55,697 bases of DNA from an uncultured Alphaproteobacteria bacterium (GTDB lineage: Bacteria; Pseudomonadota; Alphaproteobacteria; Thalassobaculales; Thalassobaculaceae): the NCBI GenBank assembly GCA_902589475.1, contig CACITD010000010.1, forward strand, positions 1-55,697. The letters are read 5' to 3'. Each line of letters begins with the position of its first letter. The stretch's first letter is position 1. Made by a program: the position numbers and the translations under genes. Of this stretch, positions 28,563 to 31,782 are shown one piece after another. The notes beneath the pieces are model-generated. The model saw only the letters and a program-made list of their open reading frames with translations. It was not told the origin of the DNA and ran no database searches.

Positions 28563-29450
28563 CTAGTATAAATCCGACGGGCGCTCTACAATAGACGATA
28601 TAGCGTCTTTGATACTGCCGAGGGCTCGTGCTTCTAGTTGCCTCACACGCTCTTTACTGACACCAAATTCCTGACCTAGGGACTCAAGGGTCACTTTCTC
28701 ATCACTTAATCTTCTGCGTTTAATAATTGTATATTCTCTTGGACTAAGTTCAGCCATAGCTCGTGCAATGATGTCCGCTCTAATCTTGGCATCGGTGCTT
28801 CCACTTAAAATGACTTCTGGATTTGGCCGTTCGTCCGCTAAGAGATCTTGCAGCTCAACTCCGCTTTCATCGAATGCAATAGCGTTCAGGGACTGGTCGC
28901 TTTTTTCTAACCTTCCGGTCATGTAGTCAACGTCTCGAACAGGAACTTCGAGTTGCTTTGCAATTTCCTCGGACATGTTGTCATACGGAAGTGACAAAGA
29001 TTGTTCTTCCAATTTAGATTTTAAACGGCGCAGGTTAAAGAAAAGTTTACGCTGAGATGATGTAGAACCTATGCGAACCATAGACCAGTTTCGCAGAATG
29101 TATTCTTGAATAGCGGCTTTGATCCACCAAGCGGAATAGGTTGAGAAACGTACGTCGCGATCGGGGTCAAACTTGTCAGCGGCTTGCATGAGACCTACGT
29201 TTGCTTCTTGAATCAGATCGCTAACAGGTAAACCAAACTTTTTATATTTGAGCGCAGAGCTCACGGCCAGACGAGAATATGCGCGTATCAGTCGATCCAA
29301 CGCCTTTGAATCCCGGTTACGTTTCCACGCTCGCGTCAATTGCTGCTCATCCTCTTTGGTGAGGAGTGGCTGTTTCATTGCTTTTCTTATAAAATCTGAT
29401 TCCCCAGATTTGAAAGTGCTGTCCAGCGAACTTTGTGTCGTGTAAGTCAT
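28563..29450 (-). CDS. rpoH: RNA polymerase sigma factor, RpoH (sigma-32) family
   Basis: Alternative sigma factor for heat-shock or oxidative-stress promoters. Region 2 is clear (LIRAYSRLAVSSALKYKKFG, DLIQEANVGLMQAADKFDP, RFSTYSAWWIKAAIQEYI). The RpoH box region is SQRKLFFNLRRLK, and region 4 ends in LGQEFGVSKERVRQLEARAL. The ATG at 29450 has AGGAG five bases upstream and gives 295 residues; a GTG at 29489 is in frame but would lie upstream of the predicted transcript start. A TGATCC-N16-CGTA promoter precedes it, matching the one before the neighbouring ECF sigma gene, so it is likely an RpoE target like RpoHII of Rhodobacter (inference from that system). Confidence 0.94.
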   Translation of the reverse strand: MTYTTQSSLDSTFKSGESDFIRKAMKQPLLTKEDEQQLTRAWKRNRDSKALDRLIRAYSRLAVSSALKYKKFGLPVSDLIQEANVGLMQAADKFDPDRDVRFSTYSAWWIKAAIQEYILRNWSMVRIGSTSSQRKLFFNLRRLKSKLEEQSLSLPYDNMSEEIAKQLEVPVRDVDYMTGRLEKSDQSLNAIAFDESGVELQDLLADERPNPEVILSGSTDAKIRADIIARAMAELSPREYTIIKRRRLSDEKVTLESLGQEFGVSKERVRQLEARALGSIKDAISSIVERPSDLY

Positions 29451-29476
29451 GTTTTCTCCTAACCTGATATAGAAAT

Positions 29477-29502
29477 TACGAGCAGTCACAACCTCTGGAT
29501 CA
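29477..29502 (-). promoter_or_regulatory. Predicted ECF (RpoE-type) promoter of rpoH
   Basis: On the minus strand TGATCC (29502-29497) is followed after 16 bases by CGTA (29480-29477). TGATCC is the -35 element I recall for Rhodobacter RpoE promoters, and CGTA is a common ECF -10 core. The predicted +1 near 29468 lies just before the AGGAG site and ATG of rpoH. The same element with the same spacing lies before the ECF gene. Confidence 0.7.
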
Positions 29503-29644
29503 CATTTTCTGGTTGAAAATGTTTGTTTAAAACTTATGTCGGGGGGGGAGAAAAATATAATATCAAGCGTTCTAGTCGACTCGTTTGAACGCTGTGGCGA
29601 GTGACTACACTAAGTTTATCCTTTGCCGTCTGTCGTGAGGTCGT

Positions 29645-30352
29645 ATGTCTAAAATATTTCCGGTTGGAAGCGTTGCTGTCGTTTTAGGTTCGTCTGGTGG
29701 CATTGGGAAAGCGATTAGAGATAATCTTGTCAAACAGAAGATTTTTTACGACGTTATTTCAGCCAGTAGAGAAACGAGTCCAAAGGTTGACTTAAAAAGC
29801 GAACGATCGATTATTGATTTAGCTGAAGCAATAAAGCAAAGAGATCGCGAACTGAGATTAGTAGTCGATGCAACCGGCTTGTTGCACAATGAAAATTTTT
29901 TCCCAGAAAAAAATCTCCGTTCGTTGACACAGGAAGCACTATTAGAAAATTTTCTTGTTAACGCGATTGGACCGGTACTTTGTTTAAAGCATTTAAGCGC
30001 ACTTTTCCCAAGAGTGGGTAAATCAGTGTTTGTGAGTCTGTCAGCGAGAGTTGGTAGCGTTGCAGATAATCACTTGGGGGGGTGGTATAGTTATCGTGCG
30101 TCAAAAACGGCCTTAAATCAATTGATCAAAACAGCATCGATTGAATTGGCGCGCGGCCTGCCAGACCACGTGTCAGTTGCAGTTCATCCTGGTACGGTAG
30201 CAACCAAGCTCTCCAAACCCTTTTCGAAGGCTGGATTGAGACTTCTAACACCGGATGAAGCTGCTGCTAAGCTATGGAAGGTGATCGAAAAGTTAGAAAG
30301 TTCAGACACAGGTAAATTTTTTGATAATGAGAAAAGATCTATCCCGTGGTGA
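29645..30352 (+). CDS. Short-chain dehydrogenase/reductase (C-factor-like)
   Basis: A 235-residue NAD(P)-dependent oxidoreductase with the Rossmann motif VLGSSGGIGKAI (residues 13-24), catalytic Ser133 in SLSARVGSV, and Tyr150 and Lys154 in YRASK. The region after LVNAIGPVLCLKHL and the tail VAVHPGTVATKLSKPF fit the C-factor/CsgA-like SDR group. GAGG precedes the ATG. It lies between the divergent rpoH and the downstream ECF sigma gene (90-base gap), suggesting a link with the same stress response, but no TGATCC promoter is seen before it. Substrate unknown. Confidence 0.88.
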   Translation: MSKIFPVGSVAVVLGSSGGIGKAIRDNLVKQKIFYDVISASRETSPKVDLKSERSIIDLAEAIKQRDRELRLVVDATGLLHNENFFPEKNLRSLTQEALLENFLVNAIGPVLCLKHLSALFPRVGKSVFVSLSARVGSVADNHLGGWYSYRASKTALNQLIKTASIELARGLPDHVSVAVHPGTVATKLSKPFSKAGLRLLTPDEAAAKLWKVIEKLESSDTGKFFDNEKRSIPW

Positions 30353-30408
30353 TATTTCAGCCCCGGTCTGCACCATTACAGAAAAATTAGTTATTTTTAT
30401 ACTCAGAA

Positions 30409-30434
30409 TGATCCAATCTGAAAAGTTGACCGTA
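30409..30434 (+). promoter_or_regulatory. Predicted autoregulatory ECF promoter of rpoE-chrR
   Basis: TGATCC (30409-30414), a 16-base spacer and CGTA (30431-30434). Spacing and both boxes are identical to the rpoH promoter. Transcription would start at about 30441-30444, that is at or within the first ATG of the sigma gene, implying a leaderless message or a later translation start. Confidence 0.7.
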
Positions 30435-30442
30435 GTAGTTAC

Positions 30443-31120
30443 ATGAGTATAGATGTAGACATAGTTGCTGAGCGGCGGAACTCTGGGTTAGACCGAGTAC
30501 ACGTTGGGAATTCATCTTTTCCGACAATTGGTTCGAACGAGGAGTCAAAGGAAGTTGGTCTAAAGGTGGAAAGTGTTTACAGGGACGAGCAGTCAAGATG
30601 GATTGTTGCCGTGGCAGAAAACCGCGATAAAAAGGCTTTTAAACGATTGTTCAATTACTTTGCTCCGAGAATAAAAGGGTTCTGCCAAAACAATGGGTCT
30701 ACGTCCGACCGAGCAGAGGAGGTAGTGCAAGAAGCCTTCGTAAATATCTGGAGAAAGGCTAATCTATTTGATCCAAAAAAAGCTAGCGCCGGCGCCTGGA
30801 TATTTGCAATCGCCAGAAACTCTCGGATTGACCTAATAAGGAAAGAAAATCGTCCTGAGGCTGACACAACTGATCCATTTTTCGAACAGAATGAGCCCGA
30901 AAGTCCATTGGCGGTTCTAGAAACCGAACGTAAAAGTAAGCTTCTTCGTGACTTTGTTAGAGATTTGCCCGCTGAGCAACAGCAGGTTTTAAAGTTGGCT
31001 TTTTTTGAGGAAAAACCACACTCGGAGGTAGCTGAAGAGCTGGGGATACCTTTGGGGACAGTAAAGTCTAGAATAAGACTGGCCTTTAAAAGGATAAGAA
31101 GTGAGTTTGGGGAAATATAA
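30443..31120 (+). CDS. rpoE: ECF sigma factor, RpoE/ChrR-controlled type
   Basis: Group 4 sigma factor with only regions 2 and 4. Region 2 spans RWIVAVAENRDKKAFKRLF to GAWIFAIARNSRIDLIRK, with the DRAEEVVQEAFVNIW helix; region 4 is LPAEQQQVLKLAFFEEKPHSEVAEELGIPLGTVKSRI. The first 45 or so residues have no sigma-like sequence and may not be translated, because the predicted promoter puts +1 at the first ATG; GTG 30566 is a possible later start. The stop overlaps the start of the anti-sigma gene by one base (TAATG). In Rhodobacter this pair responds to singlet oxygen; the same role here is inferred. Confidence 0.92.
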   Translation: MSIDVDIVAERRNSGLDRVHVGNSSFPTIGSNEESKEVGLKVESVYRDEQSRWIVAVAENRDKKAFKRLFNYFAPRIKGFCQNNGSTSDRAEEVVQEAFVNIWRKANLFDPKKASAGAWIFAIARNSRIDLIRKENRPEADTTDPFFEQNEPESPLAVLETERKSKLLRDFVRDLPAEQQQVLKLAFFEEKPHSEVAEELGIPLGTVKSRIRLAFKRIRSEFGEI

Positions 31121-31782
31121 TGAAAATTACACACCATCTTAGTGAGGAATTTTTACTTGATTACTCTTCGGGTGCACTCTCTGAGGCTTGGAGCATAGCT
31201 GTAGCGGCTCATCTGTCCAAATGTTCACACTGTAGAGCATTACACGCCAAGTTAGAGGAAGTAGGGGGCTCGCTATTATCAGACTCTACTCCTGAAGGGT
31301 TATCCGATGACATTTTTGAGAACGTGCTAGATCGACTTGACGAGGCCGGGGCAGCTACAGGTAATGGGGTTAGACATAACAGTGAGTGGGCTAGTAGGTA
31401 CGGTATTCCTGCAGTAGTCACTGACTACTTGGCTGCTGATGCAAATAAATTGCCATGGAAAAGTCTAGGTTTGGGAGTAAGTCAGGTTGTCTTAGAGACA
31501 AAAGACAGCTCCGCAACTGCCCGGTTACTGAAAATACCTGCTGGTAAGAAGGTTCCTCACCACAGCCATAAAGGAAGAGAGTTAACGGTTATCTTTTCTG
31601 GTGGCTTCACTGACGAGACGGGTAGCTATGGCCCAGGCGATATTCAGGAGATACACGGCAGCACTGAGCACCAACCTTGGGTGCGTGAAGGAGAAGACTG
31701 CATTTGTCTTGCCGTGACAGAGGCACCACTGAAATTTTCAAGTGTTGCGGTTAGATTGGCGCAGCCCCTAATAGGTATTTGA
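31120..31782 (+). CDS. chrR: ChrR-type zinc anti-sigma factor with cupin domain
   Basis: Holds the ECF sigma factor encoded just upstream inactive until singlet oxygen or similar damage. The N-terminal anti-sigma domain has His6, His31, Cys35 and Cys38 (HLSKCSHC), the same four zinc ligand positions described for Rhodobacter sphaeroides ChrR. The C-terminal half (about residues 110-205) is a cupin with a second metal site His148, His150, Glu154 and His184 (VPHHSHKGRELTVIFSGG and STEHQPW). At 220 residues it is full length. The 1-base overlap with rpoE supports balanced co-translation. Confidence 0.94.
   Translation: MKITHHLSEEFLLDYSSGALSEAWSIAVAAHLSKCSHCRALHAKLEEVGGSLLSDSTPEGLSDDIFENVLDRLDEAGAATGNGVRHNSEWASRYGIPAVVTDYLAADANKLPWKSLGLGVSQVVLETKDSSATARLLKIPAGKKVPHHSHKGRELTVIFSGGFTDETGSYGPGDIQEIHGSTEHQPWVREGEDCICLAVTEAPLKFSSVAVRLAQPLIGI

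Follow-up and report, generated by a model that had tools for sequence, protein, structure and literature searches.

This work describes a 3.2 kb locus in a stretch of 55,697 nucleotides (contig CACITD010000010.1, assembly GCA_902589475.1; hereafter the window) from an uncultured bacterium of the family Thalassobaculaceae. The genes rpoH2, a short-chain dehydrogenase/reductase (SDR) gene and the pair rpoE-chrR lie side by side in two genomes of the same genus, that of the window (G000; 93 contigs, 2.08 Mb, completeness 59%) and G001. This genus is designated g1 (G000 to G004) and its sister genus g8. Judged from the gene identities, the zinc ligands, the promoter boxes with their spacing, the conservation in G001 and the separate units in g8, all read from sequence, the locus would probably work as an ECF11 cascade (ECF, extracytoplasmic function), with rpoH2 and rpoE-chrR each behind a TGATCC-N16-CGTA site. 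By homology with studied systems, it likely serves, in compact form, as a two-step alarm against singlet oxygen generated by light.

Gene identities and predicted promoters

According to their sequences, the pair in the window is an ECF11 RpoE-ChrR and the sigma-32 gene is of the RpoHII type. An initial annotation, made from the letters alone, had named a compact RpoE-ChrR-RpoH circuit, and the names were upheld by curated models. The nearest solved relative of RpoE was that of Rhodobacter sphaeroides (2q1z_A, E = 3.3e-42). ChrR scored 208.6 bits (cut-off 124.5) against the ChrR-family anti-sigma model and aligned over residues 1-208 of 220 with 2z2s_B (E = 4e-46). The four zinc ligands of the anti-sigma domain were found exactly where they had been annotated (His6, His31, Cys35 and Cys38), in agreement with the R. 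sphaeroides list, and the cupin domain has its four ligands as well (His148, His150, Glu154 and His184, corresponding to R. sphaeroides 141, 143, 147 and 177). The match to NF051881, the model of cadmium-, peroxide- and UV-responsive ChrR, was under the cut-off (135 bits versus 300) and thus has no bearing on which stress ChrR senses. The product of rpoH2 exceeded the cut-off of NF005693 (315 bits) and remained under that of the general RpoH model TIGR02392 (276 bits, cut-off 323.1); the second RpoH of G000, on contig C7, showed the opposite pattern, that of the RpoHI type. This typing is our own reading of the two scores.

A search for TGATCC-N15 to N17-CGTA in the window gave two matches only, precisely at the two promoters of the initial annotation (Table 1). 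They had been called identical, which holds for the boxes and the spacing; the spacers differ. Shuffled versions of the window gave a mean of 0.22 matches, and two matches were reached in 2 of 100 shuffles. On a weight matrix built from 32 sites of g1 and g8, including both window sites and one unchecked TGATCT site (L107), they scored 25.7 and 22.0 bits; the next best score in the 55.7 kb was 8.7, with no third site above 10 bits. In G001 the same locus carries three sites, and that of rpoH2 again lies 26 bp from the ATG, in intergenic DNA with a mean column identity of 67% between the two genomes; the arrangement is preserved with ChrR 71% identical. As far as sequence tells, sigma and anti-sigma genes form one operon behind a promoter of the autoregulatory type, as in ECF11, and the chrR ATG shares one base with the rpoE stop codon.

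The rpoH reading frame listed from GTG 29489 would overlap the promoter. The ATG at 29450 fits better, since it lies 26 bp from the -10 box, the distance seen in G001. The rpoE mRNA is predicted to begin at or near its start codon (leaderless) because an in-frame ATG lies only 8-9 bp after the -10 box; this was observed in the window and in five relatives (L043, L044, L046, L047 and L048), with frames of 225-235 aa. About 40 residues of the window RpoE precede the part aligning with R. sphaeroides RpoE.

Table 1. Positions of the genes and predicted promoters of the locus in the window.
Feature	Position	Strand	Description
rpoH2	28563..29450	-	RpoHII-type sigma-32 factor, 295 aa; NF005693, 349 bits
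rpoH2 promoter (predicted sigma-E)	29477..29502	-	TGATCC-N16-CGTA; ends 26 bp before ATG
SDR gene	29645..30352	+	235 aa; Pfam adh_short; best NCBIfam model PRK09009, under cut-off
rpoE-chrR promoter (predicted sigma-E)	30409..30434	+	TGATCC-N16-CGTA; ends 8 bp before rpoE ATG
rpoE	30443..31120	+	ECF sigma factor, 225 aa; TIGR02937, over cut-off
chrR	31120..31782	+	220 aa; zinc-binding anti-sigma factor carrying a cupin domain; TIGR02451

Rarity and probable origin of the arrangement

The compactness of the circuit proved rare in the genomes searched. In a class draw of 240 genomes, ChrR hits (E ≤ 1e-25) were obtained in 80 and RpoH hits (E ≤ 1e-68, RpoHI-type rows kept) in 106. Both were present in 65 genomes, on one contig in 19 and on different contigs, hence without a distance, in 46; they lay less than 5 kb apart only in the genome of the window, followed by G046 at 7.2 kb, where the gene near chrR is of the RpoHII type with other genes between. 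Among 61 relatives, distances below 5 kb were found only in G000 and G001, followed by G046 and G008 (9 kb, RpoH of either type), in a table of 28 genomes with hand-picked rpoH hits from which most RpoHI-type rows were left out. In the flanks of 20 ChrR loci (up to 5 kb, several ended by contig ends), rpoH2 appeared only in G001. A Rhodobacteraceae record, L011, was considered as a second case and rejected, its rpoH at 2.8 kb from chrR being of the RpoHI type. Both g1 genomes with a fully assembled locus, G000 and G001, have the three units together. The system itself is known; as far as the searches show, the novelty lies in how the genes are arranged, in the relocation that likely brought this about and in the apparent uncoupling of the ufa (furan-fatty-acid) genes, and no report of this arrangement was found in titles and abstract openings of the literature searched, subscription papers being outside its reach.

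In g8 the three units are apart, each with a sigma-E-type site: rpoE-chrR adjoins the ufa genes, rpoH2 stands after carD, and the SDR gene belongs to a separate operon. RSP1091 is ufaD and RSP1090 is ufaO (PMC7380195). Divergence of rpoE-chrR from ufaD, a common and not a defining trait of ECF11, was observed in 8 of 21 distinct loci besides the window (three of g8, G008, G036, G044, G057 and L011) and is absent from the window and G001. In the g8 locus of G011, a transporter-like gene, ufaM, ufaO and ufaD precede the divergent rpoE and chrR; after chrR come an FAD oxidoreductase-like gene and a gene for 326 aa, then a dioxygenase-like gene in opposite orientation, and lastly a small gene followed by an MFS-like one (names by eye, the ufa set excepted). 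Four g1 genomes retain these neighbours in the same order, minus the 326-aa gene and rpoE-chrR. That g1 had lost its ufa genes was considered and rejected: ufaD- and ufaM-like genes are present in four of the five genomes, away from rpoE, with the G000 copy on contig C20 (ufaO and ufaM domains checked in G000). Upstream of g1 ufaD no RpoE-type or degenerate site was detected, the best score over four genomes being -7.1 bits.

A TGATCT-N16-CGTA site was found at the g8 rpoH2 after carD in all four genomes examined. A CarD-like gene also precedes rpoH2 in g10, G044 and G046 (for G011 and G013, CarD was checked with Pfam), the site of G044 being TGATCC-N16-CGTA; G020 gave no RpoHII-type hit. In a ChrR tree of 23 rows, g1 was sister to g8 with support 99/95, seven other inner branches being unresolved. 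As the tree groups g1 with g8, and g8 and several outgroups keep rpoE-chrR by ufaD, the simplest reading is that the joined locus is derived in g1. From this comparison of sequences, rpoE-chrR of g1 most likely moved from the ancestral ufa locus to the rpoH2/SDR site, leaving behind a ufa operon without a recognisable RpoE promoter.

Predicted targets across the genus

The genome-wide scan suggested in the initial annotation gave six exact N16 sites in G000 and none of the reversed pattern. Other spacings gave 1-4 exact sites each, so that the raw count is weak and the case rests on position and conservation. Five of the six sites qualify, those of rpoH2, rpoE, pdxH, a gene for a 36-aa protein and a candidate short transcript. 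Over the five g1 genomes, N16 gave 31 sites versus a mean of 13.9 for eight other spacings (12-15 and 17-20). When classed by hand, 23 of these lay before a gene start or conserved element, two were plausible and six were not (the names VOC-like, yaaA-like, membrane proteins, GPH, NIPSNAP and MFS were assigned by eye). That the motif might be equally common in coding DNA, which would count against the promoters, was put to a partial test by script, in which 21 of the 29 N16 sites outside the window fell outside reading frames of at least 80 aa, versus three of nine N15/N17 sites (nine fetched of 13 in G001 to G004). The other six of these nine were inside frames, although one of them also sits 77 bp ahead of the start of an SDR gene; the three outside were the element of a yaaA-like gene. 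This TGATCC-N17-CGTA element lies about 195 bp upstream of the gene (named by eye) in three relatives (L096, L101 and L110) and is also present in G000, at C17:44986.

The sites of pdxH, the 36-aa gene and the short transcript lie on other contigs, as do the ufa genes; the regulon is therefore not self-contained. The earlier observation was correct and its identification sound, and self-containment was overstated. In G000 the site is 38 bp upstream of pdxH (L001:1501-2158, contig C6; Pfam run on this copy only), and four of the five g1 genomes have it; the pdxH flanks are conserved too, which makes site conservation supportive and not decisive. In plants, vitamin B6 acts as a quencher of singlet oxygen (PMC2777905), and pdxH, if truly a target, would tie this quencher to a bacterial response; no report joining pdxH, singlet oxygen and a sigma factor was found in the titles and abstract openings searched.

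The 36-aa membrane-like protein is encoded behind a site in G000, G003 and G004. The candidate short transcript (L006:605-860 and L108), 85% identical between G000 and G004 over 215 bases, was found in two of 15 genomes, with a 24-base match in G003, and no Rfam family came near its gathering score. It holds an 18-codon frame (MKSRKIRVRVSLPSGHFR in G000) in which 17 of 18 residues are kept and five of six codon changes, with the stop counted in, are silent; the transcript may therefore be a short mRNA and not a non-coding RNA. A peptide of 41 aa that looks exported and has an SCGYGDHTHTD-type stretch is encoded behind a site in G001, G002 and G004, with an amine-oxidase-like FAD gene about 280 bp further on; among its 33 database relatives at E ≤ 1, two are labelled 'hypothetical protein' and the rest are unnamed. 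Two kinds of exported-looking mini-peptide genes, of about 40 aa with one Cys and several His, were seen directly behind sites (L078, L065, L081 and L107). Sites also precede a gene for an 82-85-aa membrane-like protein in G001 and G004 and, in G004 alone, a second mini-peptide gene, a fasciclin gene and a photolyase-domain gene. The last of these hints that the organism may be exposed to light. Additionally, a hairpin-like stretch and a T run follow within about 50 bases of the site at 754-779 of L102 (G003, contig C84), possibly a very short RNA, and a glutathione peroxidase gene lies behind a site near rpoE-chrR-SDR in L049:609-1233 (G013, g10).

The SDR gene had been proposed as an output of the circuit, and sites in relatives agree with this, while none was found in the window. 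Its product scored 181.9 bits against NF006532 (PRK09009; cut-off 330), a model with no match over cut-off in 61 genomes. Control of the window SDR gene by RpoE was unsupported, the best upstream matrix score being -11.9 bits, and the gene there is likely transcribed by other means; sigma-70-like matches in the region were near chance (8, versus a mean of 5.0 and sd of 2.6 in shuffles). G001 has an SDR site of its own, 88 bp upstream. Outside g1, 4 of 20 SDR loci have an upstream site, namely G044 and three of g8, and the other 16 have none. In these three g8 genomes the site (spacing 17 bp in G011, 16 in G027 and G030) precedes an operon of a homologue of the 82-85-aa protein, the SDR gene and a DCC1-like gene, in this order. 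The SDR gene of g10 directly follows chrR.

Proposed mechanism and comparison with known systems

By analogy, we infer that RpoE would bind these sites, that singlet oxygen would be the trigger and that RpoH2 would act as in Rhodobacter. Singlet oxygen or organic peroxide would inactivate ChrR, freed RpoE would transcribe its own operon and rpoH2, and RpoH2 would turn on a wider repair regulon. The model is the homologous chain in which singlet oxygen leads to ChrR breakdown, RpoE activates rpoE-chrR and rpoH2, and the response is then broadened by RpoH2 (PMC6852236). Transcription of rpoH2 by RpoE is predicted from a site kept in G001, g8 and G044.

Several observations weigh against this cascade. 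The reversed-pattern control is soft (68 reversed matches versus 142 over spacings 12-20 in the five g1 genomes), and of the 31 N16 sites, six are within coding sequence or ambiguously placed. The window SDR gene has no sigma-E site. The full locus was seen in two of the five g1 genomes: the G004 contig ends inside rpoE, G002 has a rpoH2 fragment at a contig start, and neither rpoE-chrR nor rpoH2 was found in G003. In two g10 genomes rpoH2 showed no exact site upstream, and in G046 it has the variant TGAACC-N16-CGTA. Finally, sigma-E-ChrR of Caulobacter also answers cadmium and organic hydroperoxide, so the trigger here could differ.

The strongest alternative, with a probability just short of even, is that the cascade is real and the clustering a neutral rearrangement of genes that would work equally well apart. 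The units of g8 and G044 lie apart yet carry sigma-E-type sites, and in Rhodobacter capsulatus, with rpoE-chrR displaced, rpoE and rpoHII are still induced (PMC7074977); neutrality has to account, nevertheless, for three separate units with sites of one sigma factor coming to adjoin, and for an arrangement kept between G000 and G001 despite the divergence of their ChrR. That the pair senses organic hydroperoxide, cadmium or UV-A instead of singlet oxygen is rather unlikely: the several signals of Caulobacter would fit, whereas the cupin domain, required for the singlet-oxygen response of R. sphaeroides, is intact and retains its ligands, and the genome has ufaD- and ufaM-like genes. A chance match before rpoH2, leaving the gene outside RpoE control, is very improbable, given that G001 keeps the site at the same distance in poorly conserved intergenic DNA and that rpoH2 of g8 and G044 have sites too, even if chance should give each genome a few exact matches and the two g10 genomes show no exact one there.

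Beyond the ECF11 cascade itself, a broader scenario is offered tentatively, as less likely than not: g1 may have rebuilt the response, the pair leaving the ufa operon, which would have lost RpoE control so that the ChrR-destruction loop was cut, and joining rpoH2 and the SDR gene in a single master locus. New members of the regulon would then be vitamin B6 synthesis (through pdxH), His-rich mini-peptides for export and a novel short transcript. The locus amounts to a rearrangement experiment made by nature on a stress cascade that has been studied in depth, and it comes with a list of predicted RpoE targets (pdxH, mini-peptides, the 36-aa protein and the candidate short transcript). As the ufa genes are seemingly uncoupled in g1, the role of the ufa/ChrR-turnover loop could be tested by comparing g1 with g8.

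The RpoE-ChrR-RpoHII system of R. sphaeroides (ECF11) resembles that of the window in its RpoE and ChrR homologues, its promoter boxes and spacing, which the Pos19 promoter shares (PMC5036791), and in having rpoHII as a target, which for the window is a prediction. Its RpoE regulon includes a photolyase and the fasciclin protein RSP_1409 (PMC7074977), as predicted for G004. Its rpoHII is RSP_0601 (PMC7074977) and its rpoE RSP_1092, so the two genes are apart there, in agreement with the initial annotation. RSP_1087-1091, including ufaD and ufaO, lie beside rpoE in R. sphaeroides, and the ufa genes there are targets of RpoE on which the turnover of ChrR under singlet oxygen depends (PMC6852236, PMC7074977); in the window, by contrast, rpoH2 and the SDR gene adjoin rpoE, while the ufa genes are found elsewhere in the genome, with no recognisable site before them.

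In R. capsulatus rpoE-chrR is displaced as well, a precedent that lessens the novelty here. According to PMC7074977, the pair lies away from an RSP_1087-1091 operon, as in the window; unlike the window, it has bsaA1-cryB as its neighbour and photosynthesis genes nearby, homologues of RSP_1087-1091 are seemingly missing, and its proteins have diverged strongly (24% and 13% identity). RpoE2-ChrR of Shewanella oneidensis shares the promoter boxes and spacing of the window at rpoE2, pgpD and phr, and its predicted RpoE2 regulon includes the photolyase-SDR operon SO_4169-SO_4170; rpoH, unlike that of the window, is listed there under the promoter of another sigma factor, RpoE (PMC4336711).

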